In this document: piece after piece, positions 2,865-11,158 of the stretch | Layout of the letters: every line of letters starts with the position of its first letter | How positions within the stretch are numbered: the stretch's first letter is position 1 | DNA from: an uncultured bacterium | GTDB taxonomy: Bacteria > DUMJ01 | Length of the DNA: 11,158 nt | Reading direction: 5' to 3' | Assembly (NCBI GenBank): GCA_937958695.1 | Contig: CALGNK010000015.1 | Span: 1-11,158 of the forward strand | Notes under the pieces: model-generated | Seen by the model: the letters and a program-made list of their open reading frames with translations, nothing else | The model's database searches: none | What the model was told of the DNA's origin: nothing | Made by a program: the position numbers and the translations under genes

Positions 2865-4361
2865 ATGTATTTTATAGGCATCGACTGTGGAACTCAGAGT
2901 TTAAGGACAGGTATATTTGATGAAAAGGGAAAACCATTGGCATTTGCAACAAAGGATTATCCAATCTATTATCCCTCTTCTGGTTGGGCAGAGCAAGATC
3001 CCAATGATTGGTGGATAGCATTGAAATTTACAGTGAAAAAAGTCTTACAAGATTCAGGGATCGATCCTAAACTAGTTAAAGGGATAAGTTTAGATGCTAC
3101 TGCATGTACGGTAGTTCCTTTAGATGAAAATGGTAATCCTCTACGAAAAGCCCTTCTCTGGATGGATGTAAGGGCATTTAAAGAGGCCCAAGAAGTAACA
3201 GCAACGAAGGATGAAGTTCTAAGATACGCTGGAGACGACGAATCTGCTGAATGGATGATTCCAAAAGCCATGTGGCTAAAAAGGAATGAAACTGAAATAT
3301 ACAATAAAGCCAAGTATATAGTGGAATCAACAGACTATCTAATGCATAAACTTACAGGAAGATGGACAATCTCACTCTGTAACGCTACATGTAAGTGGAA
3401 CTATGTATCTGTATTGGGCGGATTTCCTAAAAATCTGCTTAAAAAATTAGATATGGAAGAGCTACTAGAAAAATGGCCTAAAGACATACTGAGTATTGGA
3501 GAGGTCTCCGATTATCTATCACCTTCTGTGGCTGAAGAATTAGGATTGCCTCCCAATATCCCTGTAGCTGAAGGGGGAATAGATGCTTATCTAGCAATGG
3601 TTGGGATAAATATCACTACTCCTAACAAGATGGGAATAATTATGGGGTCGTCTACCTGCCATATGGTTATCACCGATACTGCAGTATTTGGCACTGGCGT
3701 TTGGGGTCCATATCCAGATGCCCTCATAAAAGGCAAGTGGGTCCTTGAGGGAGGACAGACATCTACTGGTTCTGTTATCAAATGGTTTACCGACCAATTT
3801 ACAAATGCATCTTATGAAGAACTAGACGATAAAGCAAGTAAAATTCCACCCGGTTCTGAAGGACTTGTCCTTCTGGAATATTGGCAGGGGTATAGAAGCC
3901 CAATTAGGGATCCTCTTGCTAGAGGAATCATCTGGGGCTTGAGTTTAAAACATACTCCTTATCATATACACAGAGCCATATACGAAGGAACCGCCTATGG
4001 AACGAGAAATATTATAGAAGCCATTAGTTCAAAAGGGGTAAATATTGGCGAGATTTATGCCTGTGGCGGAGGAACAAGAAGCAGATTATGGCTCCAGATA
4101 AACGCAGATGTATGTGGAATACCTATCTATATACCAGAAGTTGAAGAAGCTGGATGTCTCGGATCTGCCATAGCTGGTGCAGTTGGAGCAGGATATTTTA
4201 AAAACTTAGAGGAAGGGGCTAGCCAGATGGTGAAGATAAAAAGTATTATAGAGCCTAATATAAAGAATAAGCCTATTTACGATTTCTACTTTGATAAATA
4301 TAAGAGAACTTATATGCAGCTAAAAGACCTTATGCACGAGGTGACTAGTGTTACATTATAA
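2865..4361 (+). CDS. FGGY-family pentulose kinase, D-ribulokinase-like
   Basis: The product is 498 aa, normal for FGGY kinases. Reaction expected: ATP-dependent phosphorylation of a ketopentose (or related ketose) in the cytoplasm. Motifs: phosphate-binding loop GIDCGTQSLRTGIFD (5-19), SGWAEQDPNDWW (39-50), WMDVRA (99-104), a GGIDAYLAMVG segment (237-247) whose D240 fits the catalytic base, and a C-terminal nucleotide site CGGGTRSRLWLQINAD (400-415). The segment GSSTCHMV (261-268), with GVWGPY (278-283) and LEGGQTSTG (294-302), is characteristic of the pentulose-kinase branch that includes D-ribulokinase rather than ordinary xylulokinase. The ATG has AGGAGGAGG ending 5 nt upstream. It is transcribed alone, divergent from the LacI-type regulator. 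The exact sugar cannot be fixed from sequence. Confidence 0.88.
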   Translation: MYFIGIDCGTQSLRTGIFDEKGKPLAFATKDYPIYYPSSGWAEQDPNDWWIALKFTVKKVLQDSGIDPKLVKGISLDATACTVVPLDENGNPLRKALLWMDVRAFKEAQEVTATKDEVLRYAGDDESAEWMIPKAMWLKRNETEIYNKAKYIVESTDYLMHKLTGRWTISLCNATCKWNYVSVLGGFPKNLLKKLDMEELLEKWPKDILSIGEVSDYLSPSVAEELGLPPNIPVAEGGIDAYLAMVGINITTPNKMGIIMGSSTCHMVITDTAVFGTGVWGPYPDALIKGKWVLEGGQTSTGSVIKWFTDQFTNASYEELDDKASKIPPGSEGLVLLEYWQGYRSPIRDPLARGIIWGLSLKHTPYHIHRAIYEGTAYGTRNIIEAISSKGVNIGEIYACGGGTRSRLWLQINADVCGIPIYIPEVEEAGCLGSAIAGAVGAGYFKNLEEGASQMVKIKSIIEPNIKNKPIYDFYFDKYKRTYMQLKDLMHEVTSVTL

Positions 4362-4486: not shown

Positions 4487-5125
4487 TTAATTCAATCCCA
4501 ATAATTCTCTCGCTTTCTCTACTGCGGTAGCTGCATCTGGAGCATATCCATCTGCCCCTATCTCATCAGCATATCTCTGAGTTACTGGAGCTCCTCCTAT
4601 CATAACCTTAACCTTGTCTCTTATTCCAGCTTCCTTAAGTGCATTTATTGTATCTCTCATAGCAAGCATTGTAGTGGTTAGTAGAGCAGACATAGCCACT
4701 ATGTCAACATTTTCATTCTTAGCTGCATCTACAAACTTCTCTGGGGGGACATCCACTCCAAGATCTATTATCTGAAAACCAGCCCCCTCTAACATCATAG
4801 CAACTAGATTCTTTCCAATATCATGAAGATCTCCTCTTACTGTTCCGATAACAACTTTACCAACATAACTAGCACCCGTCTGAGTCAAAAGTGGCTTTAT
4901 AAGGTCCATACCAGCATGCATAGCCCTTGCTGCTATAAGGACCTCTGGAACATAGTACTCATTGTTTTTAAACTTCTCCCCAACTACATTCATCCCAGGT
5001 ACTAAAGCCTTATCTAAAATCTCCTTAGGGGATACCCCATCCTTCAATGCCTGCTCAACAAGCTCTCTCACCTTTTTCGCATTTCCTACAATCAAAGCTT
5101 CTGAAATTTCTTGTAAATTTACCAT
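4487..5125 (-). CDS. Corrinoid (methylcobamide)-binding protein of a methyltransferase system
   Basis: The product is 212 aa, the usual size for MtaC/MtbC/MttC-type corrinoid proteins. Residues about 1-85 are the helical cap domain, including the typical VPEVLIAARAMHAGM run (59-73). Residues about 88-212 are the Rossmann B12-binding domain with the DxHxxG signature DLHDIG: D99, H101 (the lower cobalt ligand) and G104. Further B12-site segments are ALLTTTM (near 147-153) and IGGAPV (176-181). The protein carries a cobamide that accepts a methyl group from a substrate and passes it to a second acceptor. The ATG at 5125 has GGAGGTG 7 nt upstream. It is the last gene of the operon, 65 nt after the second URO-D-like gene, its probable partner. 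Family certain; methyl donor and final acceptor unknown. Confidence 0.94.
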   Translation of the reverse strand: MVNLQEISEALIVGNAKKVRELVEQALKDGVSPKEILDKALVPGMNVVGEKFKNNEYYVPEVLIAARAMHAGMDLIKPLLTQTGASYVGKVVIGTVRGDLHDIGKNLVAMMLEGAGFQIIDLGVDVPPEKFVDAAKNENVDIVAMSALLTTTMLAMRDTINALKEAGIRDKVKVMIGGAPVTQRYADEIGADGYAPDAATAVEKARELLGLN

Positions 5126-5156
5126 CTATTTACACCTCCAAGAAGTATTTTCACAT

Positions 5157-5185
5157 ATTCTATCATATTATATAAATGATTTAAA
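5157..5185 (-). promoter_or_regulatory. Possible internal promoter for the corrinoid-protein gene
   Basis: On the minus strand TTTAAA (5185-5180) lies 17 bp before TAGAAT (5162-5157), with an extended -10 TG at 5165-5164. It sits in the 65-nt gap before the corrinoid gene, the widest gap in the downstream half of the operon. It could boost production of the corrinoid protein relative to the methyltransferases. The surrounding AT richness makes chance resemblance likely. Confidence 0.3.
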
Positions 5186-5190
5186 GAAGA

Positions 5191-6240
5191 CTAATCGAAT
5201 CTGGTATTCCAAGCAGTCTCTACCATAGCTAAAACATTCTCCAGTCTGGCACCATTATCTAACTCTGTTGTAGAACCTATAAAATATCCCGGATATCCTA
5301 TCCTGATTGCTTCTCTACAAACCTCTCTAACTTCTTCTGGTGTCCCATTAGAGAGAAGCTGACTCACATCTATTCCACCTGTTATAAAAAGTTTATCTCC
5401 GTAGAGTCTCTTTACTTCTTTTAGATTCATTCCTGCTACCGTTTCTATAGGATTTATCCCATCTATTTCTGTATCAATAAGATCTGGTATTACATCCATT
5501 ATATACCCATCCGAATGGAAGAGACATTTTATCCCATGTTCGTGCCAGGCATCATTTAGCCTCTTTAATCTAGGAAAGAATTCTCTCCTAAGCCAATCTG
5601 GAGAATGCAATAATCTCTCCTTATAAGCTATATCACCATAGGTAAGGGCACAAGGGGATAGTTCTCTATTAGCTATCTTATGTATAAACTTAACTTGCAG
5701 ATCAGTGTACACATCAAGGTATTCGGAGATAAGTCCAGGTTCATCAGCTGAAAGATAAGAGAACAATTCTATGCCAAGAGCGTGCCTTAATTCATCAAGA
5801 CCTGTTCCAGTTTGGGCATGTAAAACTACTGTGTCCCCCACATAACTTAGTATCTTATTAAAGTAAAACATATATCTATTAGCCATCTCTTCTTTATCTA
5901 TCCTTTTTAATCTCTCAATACTCTCAATCAACCACTTTTTTGCTTCTTCCTCATCCTTAAAAGGTTTTTCTTCTATCCAAGATGTCCACCTCTCCTGCCT
6001 AATAACAAGCCCATCTTCCCTCTTATAAACCCTAGGTTCCGATGGTCCAGTAACGCCTCTTGTCATATCTAACATCTTAGATATAGCTTCACAGGTTATC
6101 TTTAAGCCTTCTTCTCCAGCTGGTGGAATTCTTCCGGTAAAGTACTCTATTACAGAATCATTATAGAGTAAGTCATATATAGGGACCCTATCTGTTTCTT
6201 GTAAATTCAGAGTTCTCTCTACCCTTTCTCTCTTAGTCAT
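5191..6240 (-). CDS. URO-D-superfamily corrinoid methyltransferase-like protein (second paralogue)
   Basis: The product is 349 aa, full length for the uroporphyrinogen decarboxylase/cobalamin methyltransferase superfamily. The start MTKRERVERTLNLQETDRVP is the usual opening of these proteins. Later landmarks are LFHSDGYI (240-247), GINPIE (261-266), LFITGGIDV (284-292) and a C-terminal GYFIGSTTELDNGARLENV. Adjacency to a corrinoid protein and a paralogue argues for methyl transfer to or from cobalamin, not haem synthesis. At the position where MtaA/MtbA-type enzymes have a zinc-binding HxC it has H242-S-D244. The ATG at 6240 directly abuts the stop of the upstream gene, with GGGGAGG inside the end of that gene, so the two are translationally coupled. 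It could be a substrate:corrinoid methyltransferase or a corrinoid:acceptor enzyme; sequence alone does not decide. Confidence 0.85.
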   Translation of the reverse strand: MTKRERVERTLNLQETDRVPIYDLLYNDSVIEYFTGRIPPAGEEGLKITCEAISKMLDMTRGVTGPSEPRVYKREDGLVIRQERWTSWIEEKPFKDEEEAKKWLIESIERLKRIDKEEMANRYMFYFNKILSYVGDTVVLHAQTGTGLDELRHALGIELFSYLSADEPGLISEYLDVYTDLQVKFIHKIANRELSPCALTYGDIAYKERLLHSPDWLRREFFPRLKRLNDAWHEHGIKCLFHSDGYIMDVIPDLIDTEIDGINPIETVAGMNLKEVKRLYGDKLFITGGIDVSQLLSNGTPEEVREVCREAIRIGYPGYFIGSTTELDNGARLENVLAMVETAWNTRFD

Positions 6241-7326
6241 CTATAACCTCCCCTCTACCAAATCTTTTAATCTTCTCATATAGTAACAATAATTATTAAA
6301 CGACACATCTGGTGGAAGACTATGATCTGGGGCTGGTATGTATCCTCCTTCCTCTACCAATGGGGCTACTCTCTTAAGTTCCTTGTCTATCGCCTCTGGA
6401 CCTTCCGCTATAGCCCTCTTATCAATTCCTCCCAGCATCCTTAACTCTCTTCCAAATATCCTTCTGACTTTTACCACATCCATACCCGATTGAACTTCAA
6501 AAGGATATATAAAATTTATCCCTGCATCTAGCCAGATAGGGATTAAAGATGTTATATCCCCATCACTATCTAAAGATATCCATTTTACTCCACGAGAATA
6601 CAAGAAATCTACCACTCTCCTATACCTAGGAAACATATATTTTCTAACAAACTCCGGACTAATTAATGGACCTGTCTTATAACACATATCCTCCCAAAAC
6701 CCATACATATCTATATCAGTATAACTTAAGATCTGATCCATCATTGCTATTATAAAATCAGCTATAGCATCCATCATCTCTTCCACAAATGAAGGATCAT
6801 CGTAGAAAAGCATACATAATTTCTCTACACCAGTCAGATTCCTTAGAGGGCCAAAGAATCCTCCCCATCTATCGGAGATGATTATTAAAGGATAATCTCT
6901 GTCTCTGTAGCTTTGTAACTTTTCAATATAGTCCTTTCCTATTCTGCTTGCAAGGTCTGGTTGCATTCTTTCTTCCATAAACTTACGGAAGTCTTCTCTG
7001 GTCTCAACAGGAAATCTAATGAACTGTGGCATTGAAGACATTGGATTATCTTTTCTTTCTCTCATAAGTATTCCTTCGTGGTTTATGTAAAGGATAGTCC
7101 TATCATCCTCGGCAATTATCTTCTTTTCAAATGGTGGGTTAGGAAAGAACCAATGTCCTATCCATACCCAACGATCTGTATCGAAAAGTGGTTCCTTAGA
7201 AGGGTCATAACCTTCAGACTTCCACCTCTCAATAGTTTCGGGCCAAGCACCCATTCCCACCCCGTATATACATCTATCTACTGGCTTGTACTCCAAGATA
7301 TTTAGAAATCGCTCGCGAGAAGTCAT
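6241..7326 (-). CDS. URO-D-superfamily corrinoid methyltransferase-like protein (first paralogue)
   Basis: The product is 361 aa from the ATG at 7326. The frame is open for another 59 codons upstream, but that part only overlaps the permease gene, and MTSRERFLNILEYKPVDRC is the canonical URO-D-family start. A GAAGG lies 10 nt upstream. Landmarks: ISDRWGGFFGPLRNLTG (150-166), ISLDSDGDI (250-258), YPFEVQSGMDV (274-284), LGGIDKRAI (298-306) and PAPDHSLPPDVSF (331-343). At the zinc-site position it has D253-S-D255 instead of HxC or the paralogue's HSD, so metal binding, if any, must differ. It starts 5 nt after the stop of the permease gene, placing it firmly in the transporter operon. Likely role: methyl transfer between the imported compound and the corrinoid protein. 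A decarboxylase role in haem synthesis is unlikely here. Confidence 0.83.
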   Translation of the reverse strand: MTSRERFLNILEYKPVDRCIYGVGMGAWPETIERWKSEGYDPSKEPLFDTDRWVWIGHWFFPNPPFEKKIIAEDDRTILYINHEGILMRERKDNPMSSMPQFIRFPVETREDFRKFMEERMQPDLASRIGKDYIEKLQSYRDRDYPLIIISDRWGGFFGPLRNLTGVEKLCMLFYDDPSFVEEMMDAIADFIIAMMDQILSYTDIDMYGFWEDMCYKTGPLISPEFVRKYMFPRYRRVVDFLYSRGVKWISLDSDGDITSLIPIWLDAGINFIYPFEVQSGMDVVKVRRIFGRELRMLGGIDKRAIAEGPEAIDKELKRVAPLVEEGGYIPAPDHSLPPDVSFNNYCYYMRRLKDLVEGRL

Positions 7327-7331
7327 AAGAA

Positions 7332-8159
7332 CTATACCTTCAGAGCTCCAGAAGTTAAGCCAGCAATAAAGTAACGCATGGTAAAGAAGAAAAGAACTAT
7401 TAACGGTATAGATGCTATCACATATCCTGCAAACATAGGTCCCCACATTTCTAGTCCTCCGTATTGAGATGAAAAACTCACTATGCCAACAGTTATAGTC
7501 CACATTCTTCCGTCAGGTATAGTAACTAAAGGCCATACATAATCATTCCAGGTACCTAATACATTCATAATAGCAACAGTAACTAGGATAGGTTTAGAAA
7601 GCGGTATAGCTATATTAAAGAATGATTTCAATGTTGTAGCTCCATCAACTCTGGCAGCTTCAAATAATTCTTCAGGTAAAGAAGCGATAAAACTTCTCAA
7701 GATAAAAATAGCAAATACTTGTCCTCCAGAAATATAAGGAAGTATCAATACCCAGTAAGTATTTAGTAATCCTAATCTTTTTACCAAAAGGAAGGCAGGC
7801 ACAAGAGTCAATATACCAGGAATCATTAAAAGAGAAAGGATGCAGAGAAAGAGGAATTCTCTACCAGGAAAATTAAATCTAGCAAATACAAAAGCAGAAA
7901 TACTAGCTACAGCTAATACCCCAAAGGCAGAAATTGTAGTTACTATACCGCTATTCAAGATATATCTACTTATTCTACTCCAGGCATCAGTATAATTTGA
8001 AAAGTGTAGAGGCAAGGTAATCCCCCAAAAATTATGAATGAACTGGAAATTATCTTTAAAAGAAGTTATTATAGTGAACGCAAATGGATAAAATGTTAAA
8101 ATACCTAAAATGATCAGAATTATGTGGATCAAGAAATCATGTTTAAGGTCTTTATTCAT
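7332..8159 (-). CDS. Carbohydrate ABC transporter permease, CUT1 MalG/UgpE-type
   Basis: The product is 275 aa with about six hydrophobic segments, the first at about 10-33. The cytoplasmic EAA loop that docks the ATPase is clear: EAARVDGATTLKSFFNIAIPL (E167-A168-A169, G173, then IPL). This is a strong match for the MalG-type inner-membrane subunit of CUT1 sugar importers. The ATG at 8159 follows AGGAGGGG, whose last base is 11 nt upstream. It pairs with the permease at 8203-9120. No ATPase gene is present; CUT1 systems often borrow a shared MsmK/UgpC-type ATPase encoded elsewhere. Its 3' end is only 5 nt from the first methyltransferase-like gene. Confidence 0.93.
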   Translation of the reverse strand: MNKDLKHDFLIHIILIILGILTFYPFAFTIITSFKDNFQFIHNFWGITLPLHFSNYTDAWSRISRYILNSGIVTTISAFGVLAVASISAFVFARFNFPGREFLFLCILSLLMIPGILTLVPAFLLVKRLGLLNTYWVLILPYISGGQVFAIFILRSFIASLPEELFEAARVDGATTLKSFFNIAIPLSKPILVTVAIMNVLGTWNDYVWPLVTIPDGRMWTITVGIVSFSSQYGGLEMWGPMFAGYVIASIPLIVLFFFTMRYFIAGLTSGALKV

Positions 8160-8202
8160 ACAATAAAATTCCCCTCCTAATAGGATAAATTTTCTTCTTT
8201 TT

Positions 8203-9120
8203 CTATGCCTGATACTCTATCCCTGATCTTAGGTATTTAAGATTTAAATAGGTTAATACTATAATTATAAGGAATAAAAATGTTCCTATAGCGCAAGCAT
8301 ATCCCATTTTATTGTAATACATAGCATTCCTATAGAGATATAATCCTGGCACCATAGTAGCTTCACCAGGACCACCATTAGTCATTACCATAATATTTAC
8401 AAAACCTTGGATACTACCTATTAGAGTAAGGATAACAATCAACTTTATTTGTCCCATAATAAGAGGTAGCTCAATTTTCCAAAACCTAGTCCAAGTGGAT
8501 GCACCATCAATAGCAACAGCATCCAGTAATTCTGGAGGTATATTTTGAAATCCAGCTAAGTATATCAAAGTAGATGTCCCTGCTACCCAAGGAAAGCCTA
8601 CAAAAATTACAGCATAAAGAGCCAAGTCAAAATCTCCTAACCACGGACGAGTTAAATGTTCTAGACCGATTGTCCTTAAAAGCTGGTTAAGTAATCCGGT
8701 AGTTGGACTATATATAAATCTCCATATCATAAATATAACCATAGCTGGAACTACCATCGGAATAACAAATAAGACTCGATAAAAATATGCATATCTTAAA
8801 TTTCTTAAGTGAAAAATAAGAGAAGCGGCTAATAAGGGAAATGTAAGGTTAATAAGAAGTGAAGCAATAGTTATTCTAAGAGTATTGAGAAAGGAGAGAG
8901 GAATTGTAGGGTCATGAAAAAGAAGATTTATAAAATTACCAAGACCTATAAATCTTATAAAATTTGCTCCATCCCATTCAAATAAACTGTGGTAAATTGC
9001 TGAAAGGGCAGGATAATAATTAAAAGTGAGAAGTAGCAGAAAAGTTGGAAGTAAAAGTAAATAGCATTCCTTTTTCCTTATTATCTCCGATAGGATACTT
9101 CTTCTGTTATCATTCACCAC
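8203..9120 (-). CDS. Carbohydrate ABC transporter permease, CUT1 MalF/UgpA-type
   Basis: The product is 305 aa with about six membrane segments, the first at about 19-40 (YLLLLPTFLLLLTFNYYPAL), followed by the family-typical SLFEWDG and GLGNF segments. The EAA loop is degenerate in its first residues, DAVAIDGASTWTRFWKIELPL (200-220), with the invariant glycine at 206 and the terminal LPL kept. This is common in the MalF-like partner. Start codon is GTG at 9120, supported by AAGGAAGGTG ending 5 nt upstream; a second GTG is the next codon, so the start could shift by one residue. It is separated from the binding-protein gene by an 87-nt gap holding a strong hairpin, and followed 43 nt later by the second permease. 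Confidence 0.92.
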   Translation of the reverse strand: MVNDNRRSILSEIIRKKECYLLLLPTFLLLLTFNYYPALSAIYHSLFEWDGANFIRFIGLGNFINLLFHDPTIPLSFLNTLRITIASLLINLTFPLLAASLIFHLRNLRYAYFYRVLFVIPMVVPAMVIFMIWRFIYSPTTGLLNQLLRTIGLEHLTRPWLGDFDLALYAVIFVGFPWVAGTSTLIYLAGFQNIPPELLDAVAIDGASTWTRFWKIELPLIMGQIKLIVILTLIGSIQGFVNIMVMTNGGPGEATMVPGLYLYRNAMYYNKMGYACAIGTFLFLIIIVLTYLNLKYLRSGIEYQA

Positions 9121-9148
9121 TTATTCACCTTCCTTGAAGGAAATTTAA

Positions 9149-9189
9149 AGGATTAGCTGAGAAGAAATGTATTCCCCTCAGCTAATCCT
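9149..9189 (-). promoter_or_regulatory. Intercistronic hairpin between binding-protein and permease genes
   Basis: AGGATTAGCTGAG (9149-9161) and CTCAGCTAATCCT (9177-9189) form a perfect 13-bp stem with a 15-nt loop, 18 nt after the binding-protein stop. In the minus-strand transcript it is followed by UUUAAAUUU, too short a U-run for a strong terminator. Such hairpins in sugar-importer operons commonly stabilise or partly terminate the message so that the binding protein is made in excess over the permeases. Confidence 0.7.
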
Positions 9190-9207
9190 GAGAATAAAAT
9201 AAAACAA

Positions 9208-10674
9208 CTATTTAGCCCACTCTGGATACTGAGCTAGAAGTTGATCCGCTGCTTTAACCATCTCTTTTTGCACTTCATCTGTCATCTTTTCTATATCTAT
9301 TTTGCCGGCTAAAAACTGCTGTAATAACTTCCATAAATTATCTACAAACTCTCTAGTAAGCATACTATCAAAAGGCTCAATTCTTTCTGTTCCATACTTT
9401 ACCATTTGATCAACGTAAACCTTTAGTGACGGATCAGCTCCTTTAGTATCTTTAGTACCTGGAGCACACCCGCCATGATCATTAAGAAGCGGGATTAAAT
9501 TCTGCGGCGCAGTAATAAATCTCATCCAGTCTATAGTTTCCTTAAGAACACCGCGTTTTTCAGCAGAGCTAGCTATGGCATATTGGAAAACTCCACCTAC
9601 ACCAGCCATAGCTGGGAAATCGATTCCTCCGTAGGGAGAAGTCTCTTTAGTAATCCTTGGAATCTTAGGGAAGATTCCCCATTCAAACTTAAGTAAAGGA
9701 TCAAATCGAACAGGCTTATTCATCCAGCTTCCCAACCATACCATAGATGCTTTCTCAGTAACCCAGAGTCTATATACTTCATCTGGAGGTAAAGCCCAGA
9801 ATCCACTAGGCCAGTATTGTGACCACTCTTTAAGAATTCTTAGCATCTCTTTCCACTCTGGATCTTTAGCACCATATTTCCCGTTCTTTATAGCCTTAAC
9901 CATAACTTGAGGAGGTAAGTTTTCTCCAGGCTTCCAAGTACGTTTTACTGGTTCTTTTGTACCCTTTATTTCAGACATCTTGTGGTCATAAAGTACATCT
10001 TGCAGTATCCTAGTACACCAGCTACCCCAAAGCTGTACTCCTCCTGATAGATCCATACTAATCGAAAAAGGAATATACCCTGCTGCTTTTATTTTCTTCT
10101 GGATAGTAAGAAATTGACTCCAAATAGAAGGAACAGAGACTCCTACTTTTTTAAACATATCTTTATTATAAAAGACACCAGTACCTACTATATCACCTGT
10201 TATCATGTAGATATTACCATCAGGAGCAGTTCCGCTAGCTATTACAGGCGGCTGAAAGATATCTATCCACTTTTTGTTACCCTTTACATAAGGATTAGGC
10301 TCATTTAAATATGGGGTAAGATTTACAAACCAACCCTTCTTATAATCTCTAGCTATATAACCACGTTGGTACCAAACTATTTCAGGAGATGTAGCACCAG
10401 TCATTTGTGTAACAAGCCATTCTTCATAGCCAGTAGGAATTCCAGGGACAAATTGAATATCTACGTCTGGATGAAGTTTTTCATATTCTTTTTCTAATGT
10501 CCACATATACTTTGGAGGATCCCAGCGGTCAGCTTCTAATCTTTCCCTAGGAGTCAAGGTTTGTGCATACATTTTTACAACCTTTTTCTCTGCCCCAAAA
10601 CCGATAGAAGCGTTTAAACATAAAATTAATAACACTACTAAAATTGATTTAAAAGGTCTTTTTATATAATTCAC
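9208..10674 (-). CDS. Extracellular solute-binding protein, family 1, of the CUT1 transporter
   Basis: The product is 488 aa. Start codon GTG at 10674 is backed by GGAGGTGA ending 6 nt upstream, a near-perfect Shine-Dalgarno site. A basic N-terminus (KRPFK) is followed by a hydrophobic core (about 11-20) and a probable cleavage after GFGA (25-28). The C19 is preceded by LIL and does not make a proper lipobox, so a secreted rather than lipid-anchored form is likelier. The body shows family-1 features: WTLEKEYEKLHPDVDIQFVPG near the N-terminus, MTGATSPEIVWYQRG, and a C-terminal LWKLLQQFLAGKIDIEKMTDEVQKEM helix run. It is the first gene of the transporter/methyltransferase operon. The many tryptophans in the middle (e.g. 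SGFWALPPDEVYRLWVTEKASMVWLGSW) fit a carbohydrate-stacking site. Ligand unknown. Confidence 0.93.
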   Translation of the reverse strand: MNYIKRPFKSILVVLLILCLNASIGFGAEKKVVKMYAQTLTPRERLEADRWDPPKYMWTLEKEYEKLHPDVDIQFVPGIPTGYEEWLVTQMTGATSPEIVWYQRGYIARDYKKGWFVNLTPYLNEPNPYVKGNKKWIDIFQPPVIASGTAPDGNIYMITGDIVGTGVFYNKDMFKKVGVSVPSIWSQFLTIQKKIKAAGYIPFSISMDLSGGVQLWGSWCTRILQDVLYDHKMSEIKGTKEPVKRTWKPGENLPPQVMVKAIKNGKYGAKDPEWKEMLRILKEWSQYWPSGFWALPPDEVYRLWVTEKASMVWLGSWMNKPVRFDPLLKFEWGIFPKIPRITKETSPYGGIDFPAMAGVGGVFQYAIASSAEKRGVLKETIDWMRFITAPQNLIPLLNDHGGCAPGTKDTKGADPSLKVYVDQMVKYGTERIEPFDSMLTREFVDNLWKLLQQFLAGKIDIEKMTDEVQKEMVKAADQLLAQYPEWAK

Positions 10675-10698: not shown

Positions 10699-10770
10699 TA
10701 GATTTTCGGAAACCCTAAAACCTCTTGCAACCACGATTCTAAAGATAATATTACTTTGCTTCACCCCCAT
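10699..10770 (-). repeat. Leader direct repeat, copy nearer the operon
   Basis: This 72-bp segment matches 10817-10888 without gaps at 57 of 72 positions; 13 of the 15 differences are transitions. In the minus-strand RNA it ends 10 nt before GGAGGTGA, the ribosome binding site of the solute-binding protein gene. Its 3' part can fold as GGTTTTAGG and CCGAAAATC around GTTT, with one A-G mismatch. It also holds a palindrome TTTCGGAAA (10704-10712), and an open frame of 24 codons from ATG 10770 to TAA 10696 with an AAGGA 9 nt upstream. Candidate roles are a regulatory RNA element, a leader peptide or a duplicated operator. Confidence 0.7.
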
Positions 10771-10816
10771 AATAGGTTATCCTTTATTTTTCTATCTCAC
10801 CTCCTCTTACAATAAG

Positions 10817-10888
10817 TAGATTTTCGGAAACTCTAAAACCCCTTGTAGTCTCAGTCCTAAAGATAACCTTACCTCGTTTCACCCCCAC
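10817..10888 (-). repeat. Leader direct repeat, upstream copy
   Basis: Second copy of the 72-bp element, offset 118 bp. Like its partner it is followed, after 12 nt in the minus-strand RNA, by GGAGGTGA (10804-10797), but here no gene starts at normal spacing. The palindrome TTTCGGAAA is kept (10822-10830). The equivalent open frame starts with GTG at 10888 and runs 34 codons to TAA at 10784; it shares RGFRVSENL with the other copy. The hairpin is weaker here because an A-C mismatch replaces a G-C pair. Confidence 0.7.
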
Positions 10889-10903
10889 AGCCCAAACTTG
10901 CTT

Positions 10904-10958: not shown

Positions 10959-11158
10959 ATGCTAAGATCACAACACTGGACTCAGCATTCATTATACCAA
11001 AAGAATCTCATTAATTCGCTAAAATCACTCTATGATTCCTATAAAGATAGAATCAATGAATACTCCGAGCTCATCGATAAATTATACTACCTTAACTTGG
11101 ATCATGCTTACAAAGTCTTAGCCCCCTATTATTCTCATACCGGTAGACCCGCTAAGTT
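10959..11158 (+). CDS. Probable insertion-sequence transposase, N-terminal fragment cut by the window edge
   Basis: An open frame begins at ATG 10959, with AAAGGAGG ending 8 nt upstream, and runs without stop to the end of the window (66 complete codons). It opens with MLRSQHWTQHSLYQ, has a helical middle (LINSLKSLYDSYKDRINEYSELIDKLYYL) and ends in LAPYYSHTGRPAKL. The YYSxTGRPxK motif is typical of the N-terminal part of DDE transposases of the IS5/IS1182/ISNCY kinds, in which this short domain precedes the catalytic core. No catalytic residues are visible because the gene leaves the window. The terminal inverted repeat cannot be located. A non-transposase protein cannot be ruled out from 66 residues. 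Confidence 0.6.
   Translation, partial: MLRSQHWTQHSLYQKNLINSLKSLYDSYKDRINEYSELIDKLYYLNLDHAYKVLAPYYSHTGRPAK

Follow-up and report, generated by a model that had tools for sequence, protein, structure and literature searches.

The window analysed here is a complete contig (C15) of 11,158 bp from the 2.09-Mb, 98% complete genome (G000) of an uncultured, deep-branching bacterium. Six consecutive minus-strand genes in it combine the parts of a CUT1 importer with a putative corrinoid methyl-transfer module. The module consists of two proteins of the URO-D superfamily, MT1 and MT2, and a stand-alone corrinoid protein (CP), and a divergent sugar kinase gene lies beside it. An earlier note on this DNA had named the six genes and the kinase, and open reading frames and Pfam matches bear out all of these parts. 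The gaps within the six-gene run measure 87, 43, 5, 0 and 65 nt; the 5-nt (7332/7326) and 0-nt (6241/6240) junctions given in that note are correct, with the ATG of MT1 at 7326. The genes and motifs of the run, together with the kinase and its regulator, are as follows.

9208-10674, minus: SBP_A, CUT1 solute-binding protein (SBP) of oligosaccharide type (PF01547/PF13416, SBP_bac_1)
8203-9120, minus: CUT1 permease, MalF/UgpA type (PF00528, BPD_transp_1; NCBIfam)
7332-8159, minus: CUT1 permease, MalG/UgpE type (PF00528, BPD_transp_1; NCBIfam)
6241-7326, minus: MT1, URO-D superfamily, DSDG subfamily, proposed substrate:corrinoid methyltransferase (PF01208; AlphaFold2 (AF2) model)
6559-6570, minus: D253-S-D255-G motif of MT1, aligned with the MtaA zinc motif H-x-C
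6322-6324, minus: H335 of MT1, aligned with the third-ligand Cys of MtaA
5191-6240, minus: MT2, URO-D superfamily with H242-S-D244-G (PF01208; AF2 model)
4487-5125, minus: CP, with both B12-binding domains (PF02607 and PF02310; TIGR02370)
4814-4831, minus: DxHxxG lower-ligand motif of CP, D99-L-H101-D-I-G104 (from the translation)
2865-4361, plus: FGGY pentulose kinase, ribulokinase/xylulokinase-like (PF00370/PF02782; NCBIfam matches below cut-off)
1719-2723, minus: LacI-family regulator (PF00356 and PF00532)

The comparison genomes that share taxonomy with the window genome above domain level are those of two congeneric species (G001 and G002). In all three species MT1-MT2-CP, the divergent FGGY kinase and the LacI regulator are retained together, so the link to the kinase is firmer than the earlier note had held.

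Probable corrinoid methyl transfer by MT1, MT2 and CP

Several lines of evidence support a role of MT1-MT2-CP in corrinoid methyl transfer. CP is a stand-alone corrinoid protein with a DxHxxG motif that passes the TIGR02370 model (222.2 bits against a curated cut-off of 215.3), and its nearest structure is 1y80. MT1 and MT2 have, by Pfam and by structural models, the URO-D fold of the methyltransferase I component of O-demethylase systems. The best Foldseek match of the MT1 model (pLDDT 95.8) is MtaA 4ay8, with Z values of 20-23 to MtaA and UroD (VIA), and that of the MT2 model (pLDDT 96.1) is MtaA 4ay7. Profiles were needed for sequence comparison, as phmmer searches of the PDB with a single MT1 or MT2 query returned only noise. 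Characterised members of the superfamily other than HemE are mostly methyl- or alkyl-transferases (PMC10418091, PMC13222342).

Evidence for corrinoid chemistry also comes from the activator RACo. It was found in 40 of the 43 genomes with an MT1 relative versus 11 of 35 MT1-negative genomes (p=8e-9, a value that overstates the certainty because MT1-bearing genomes are URO-D-rich and phylogenetically non-independent). Among genomes carrying the closest MT1 relatives the proportion was 26 of 27. The window genome has one RACo-type activator, unlinked to the module, and both congeners have one also. Further evidence comes from the neighbourhoods of MT1 relatives outside the genus. Of 78 such loci, nine, all of distant relatives, also contain CP, whereas about 0.5-1 would be expected; MeTr is present in three and RACo in others. 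A locus from Dehalococcoidia (L163) holds CP, URO-D genes, MT1, MeTr and RACo all together. Likewise, MT1, MT2, CP and a separate MeTr are clustered in genome G026.

The active sites of MT1 and MT2 differ from those of the methylcobamide:thiol methyltransferases MtaA, MtbA and CmuA (TIGR01463). The fold and superfamily are the same, but those enzymes carry an HxC...C zinc triad, whereas the corresponding residues are DxD...H in MT1 and HxD...T in MT2. The TIGR01463 scores are far below the cut-off of 235.4 bits (51.2 for MT2 and 39.2 for MT1). Thiol (SCMT) chemistry was ruled out for both proteins by the missing HxC...C site. R6, W35, R128, R162, E212, D213, D253, D255, E277, K303, D334 and H335 are invariant in an alignment of 61 MT1 sequences. 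A member of the family is also present in a culturable bacterium, Caldicoprobacter algeriensis (L170). D253-x-D255 and H335 align with the three zinc-ligand positions of MtaA. Judged from this alignment, MT1 would have a hard-ligand site that fits an oxygen leaving group rather than a thiol.

The importer in front of MT1

The importer is represented in the window by a family-1 SBP and two MalF/MalG-type permeases. A MalK-type ATPase is absent from the window; the single OB_MalK protein of the genome is encoded on contig C30 and is presumably shared with this importer. Other features of the window that touch on the importer and the sugar genes are listed here.

9149-9189, minus: 18-bp hairpin between the SBP_A and first permease genes, a possible attenuator or mRNA stabiliser
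67-1698, minus: SBP_B, a second family-1 solute-binding protein (PF01547)
10701-10895, plus: dispersed repeat in two diverged copies

The earlier note had described the importer as wired directly to the methyltransferases and an accidental neighbourhood as unlikely. In other words, a dedicated CUT1 importer would bring in the methylated substrate of MT1 and MT2, and import and demethylation would form one functional operon. The co-directional genes with their 5- and 0-nt junctions favour this model, as does the resemblance of SBP_A to oligosaccharide binders (among PDB entries it is closest to binding proteins for chito- and arabino-oligosaccharides). The synteny of the congeners argues against it. 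In both G001 and G002 the importer is missing upstream of MT1, despite a 93%-identical MT1. Instead, a divergent Zn-dehydrogenase gene lies directly upstream, preceded by genes for a class II aldolase and D-lyxose isomerase. No SBP_A orthologue was found in either congener; the best match in one is a 39% paralogue, and in the other none was found.

In the window genome the dehydrogenase-aldolase-isomerase block is located on a separate contig, C25. This contig is collinear with G002 until 592 bp from its end, and the end carries the same dispersed repeat as window positions 10788-10895 (85% over 112 bp), which lie beyond the importer. Thus, one repeat marks both the far side of the importer and the displaced ancestral flank. 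The simplest reading of these sequences, made across the C15/C25 contig break, is that the importer, along with repeat sequence, came to lie between the dehydrogenase and MT1 genes only in the lineage of the window genome; loss of the importer in both congeners would be a less simple history. Since the dehydrogenase lies on another contig that ends in the same repeat, the 5-nt importer-MT1 junction appears to be lineage-specific.

Outside the genus an importer adjoins MT1 in one of 78 loci. This locus (L172), from an unrelated member of Anaerolineales (Chloroflexota), encodes an isomerase, an SBP, two permeases, MT1, two further URO-D proteins of the MT2 type and an FGGY kinase. The shared gene order and kinase favour a dedicated importer, and the binding protein is a different one. 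Because that protein is unlike SBP_A, the assembly in L172 arose independently, and the pairing of importer and methyltransferases is thus a rare arrangement that has arisen more than once, not a conserved one. The region L172:2334-12811 looks like a sugar operon that also includes a DeoC-type aldolase, and its isomerase resembles the sulfoquinovose isomerase SftI below the cut-off.

A conserved importer-methyltransferase operon was ruled out by the congener synteny and the repeat-flanked displacement. The earlier note had itself proposed checking gene order in related genomes; when this was done on relatives, the pairing was mostly missing, the outcome that the note had set against its own proposal. 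A dedicated importer is thus unlikely. The link between importer and module is a weak one, and the importer is a recent neighbour rather than a conserved partner. The kinase and LacI genes stay with MT1-MT2-CP while the importer does not, which defines the stable unit as MT1-MT2-CP with a sugar kinase and a regulator. The earlier note had observed something real but stressed the wrong junction.

The remaining features of the window are minor. SBP_B, beyond the LacI gene, is syntenic in G002. It has no permease genes before the contig end, so that its permeases, if any, lie beyond C15; the G002 contig likewise ends shortly past its SBP_B gene. The LacI-FGGY intergenic region contains a perfect inverted repeat, TTACAT-N8-ATGTAA (2737-2756), and only its right half is retained in both congeners, for which reason an operator is not claimed. 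An Rfam scan of the window found no riboswitch and no other RNA. A partial open reading frame at 10959-11156 matched no Pfam family, and a transposase is thus not claimed.

One corrinoid protein and many URO-D genes

The window genome encodes 25 URO-D proteins, and CP was the sole B12-binding_2 protein found in a search of it. The genome also has one Pterin_bind protein, a MetH-like homocysteine (Hcy)/pterin protein of 571 aa that is unlinked to the module.

G000:C1 (L082:9566-11281), minus: MetH-like protein that has the homocysteine and pterin domains and lacks those for cobalamin binding and reactivation

This protein covers MetH 1-593, and CP covers MetH 650-838. As the sole corrinoid protein found, CP is the one protein that could stand in for the cobalamin module absent from a split MetH. 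A single corrinoid protein together with MetH modules that lack a cobalamin domain is also the arrangement of a hub of the MtgC type. In Ruegeria pomeroyi, MtgC is experimentally known to serve both demethylation and a split methionine synthase, and several methyltransferases may draw on it (PMC12478193). That system uses MttB-type enzymes and betaine, whereas URO-D-type enzymes, sugar loci and fused Hcy-pterin modules are found here. By analogy with MtgC, CP is probably a hub shared by several URO-D enzymes.

The imbalance between the two protein families extends to other genomes. The 52 MT1-bearing genomes have a median of 2 PF02607 proteins, a count that includes whole MetH enzymes; for URO-D proteins, which the search counted only up to about 32 per genome, the median is at least 27.5. 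In five genomes with at least 25 URO-D genes each (G098, G100, G113, G114 and G117; loci L102, L104, L117, L118 and L121), CP lies directly beside RACo, as if the pair were a separate hub operon. Both congeners encode a fused URO-D and B12-binding_2 protein of about 595 aa with a CmuA-like layout (G001:C107:39760-41076 and G002:C358:25059-26375); such a fusion was not found in the window genome.

Alternatively, the role of CP may be confined to supplying the split methionine synthase with its cobalamin module; MT1 and MT2 would then be corrinoid-independent, URO-D-like sugar enzymes that adjoin it by accident. This explanation fits the fact that the truncated MetH has no other possible partner than CP. 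It also fits the rarity of CP beside close MT1 homologues and the absence of the HxC...C zinc site from most URO-D paralogues. However, it leaves unexplained the co-occurrence of RACo with MT1, the linkage of CP, MeTr and RACo to distant MT1 relatives, the MT1-MT2-CP order in three species and the G026 cluster, and it sits poorly with the methyl- and alkyl-transfer activities of the superfamily. We consider it doubtful, and a shared CP hub the better account.

The sugar context and a proposed route of demethylation

The sugar setting of the module is supported, but indirectly. Genes for D-lyxose isomerase, a class II aldolase and a Zn-dehydrogenase adjoin the MT1-MT2-CP, FGGY and LacI block in a congener, and FGGY kinases recur near Chloroflexota MT1 relatives. 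The L172 locus likewise combines URO-D enzymes with a sugar isomerase, an importer and a kinase. Other URO-D genes of the window genome adjoin genes for GH4, GH42, alpha-L-fucosidase, an apiosidase-like protein, L-fucose isomerase and SBP_bac_5. SBP_bac_5 genes were not significantly enriched near URO-D genes over same-genome controls, and Gfo/Idh genes were equally frequent. Some URO-D genes adjoin housekeeping genes, with two Clp-type ATPases on contig C13 (L066:10122-15560) and RelA/SpoT-like and Dtd-like genes on contig C8 (L060:6947-9319); thus, not every paralogue lies in a sugar locus. A non-sugar substrate (a methoxyaromatic or a methylated amine or sulfur compound), with the sugar genes incidental, would match characterised URO-D O-demethylases, which use methoxyaromatics, and CdmB, which uses chloromethane (PMC13222342), but it is improbable given the conserved FGGY, LacI, lyxose isomerase and aldolase neighbours and the lack of any aromatic-degradation gene seen near the module.

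Taken together, the MT1 and MT2 folds, the RACo co-occurrence, the genes near MT1 relatives and the sugar neighbours support the earlier proposal of corrinoid methyl transfer linked to sugars. The reading that we favour, with a probability of roughly 0.52, is that MT1-MT2-CP acts within sugar catabolism as an O-demethylase-type module for corrinoid methyl transfer, with CP as a hub and the importer as a recent addition. The computational results behind this reading are the gene content, the folds, the single CP, the split MetH, the RACo co-occurrence and the synteny; the methyl transfer itself, the sugar substrate, the sharing of the hub and the direction in which methyl groups flow are inferred. 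Several observations weigh against it. None of the 27 closest MT1 homologues (56-73% identity) lies beside CP, and a close MT2 adjoins just one of them. No characterised enzyme of the MT1 subfamily was found, and the RACo statistic is inflated as described above. Glycosidase genes occur near 7 of 82 URO-D genes versus 1 of 82 same-genome controls, which is merely suggestive (p=0.06). Furthermore, an alkyl ether resists cleavage more strongly than an aryl ether.

How would such a module work? MT1, MT2 or both would take a methylated carbohydrate as substrate and transfer its methyl group to the Co(I) of CP. This would free the plain sugar for isomerisation and, after that, phosphorylation by the FGGY kinase. 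Several other URO-D proteins may deliver methyl groups to CP as a shared hub. The 571-aa protein would hand the methyl group from CP to tetrahydrofolate or homocysteine, and RACo would re-reduce the cobalt. The lineage-specific importer may bring the module under the importer promoter. The module thus probably strips methyl groups from sugars without oxygen. An O-methyl sugar is the best guess for the substrate; O-methyl pentoses or deoxyhexoses are guesses.

Acetogens have three-component O-demethylases in which MtvB, OdmB or VdmB works with CP, MeTr and an activator. This scheme resembles them, and CdmBCA, in that its methyltransferase I has the URO-D fold, its corrinoid protein stands alone, its candidate methyl acceptor is pterin-binding and its activator is of the RACo type (PMC13222342). 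Unlike in those systems, MeTr and the activator are encoded elsewhere in the genome, the acceptor would be the MetH-like Hcy/pterin protein, and the neighbours are sugar genes. A genome search found no CdhC/ACS (acetyl-CoA synthase), which ruled out a Wood-Ljungdahl acetogen scheme. The literature searched described O-demethylase, chloromethane and methyl-sulfur/selenium systems and no corrinoid route for sugars, which is no proof of novelty. The only sugar-demethylation enzyme that surfaced there was a P450 system, which likewise removes the methyl group from a methoxy sugar (6-O-methyl-galactose) but needs oxygen, releases formaldehyde and involves no corrinoid (PMC10033563).

The arrangement may extend well beyond this genome. 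Tentatively, in Armatimonadota, Omnitrophota, Chloroflexota, Planctomycetota and the window lineage, one or two corrinoid proteins and RACo might serve dozens of URO-D methyltransferases in sugar loci. This would be a general O2-independent removal and assimilation of O-methyl groups that feeds folate and methionine, with the DxD...H of MT1 as an alkoxide-activating metal site. O-methyl sugars occur widely in the polysaccharides of plants, algae and bacteria. What deserves testing is whether many URO-D enzymes in the sugar loci of several phyla share one corrinoid hub. If anaerobic sugar demethylation via a shared CP is true, it would account for the unassigned 'uroporphyrinogen decarboxylase' genes that genomes have by the dozen among their glycosidases, and a large annotated-but-unknown family would become testable in one assay format.

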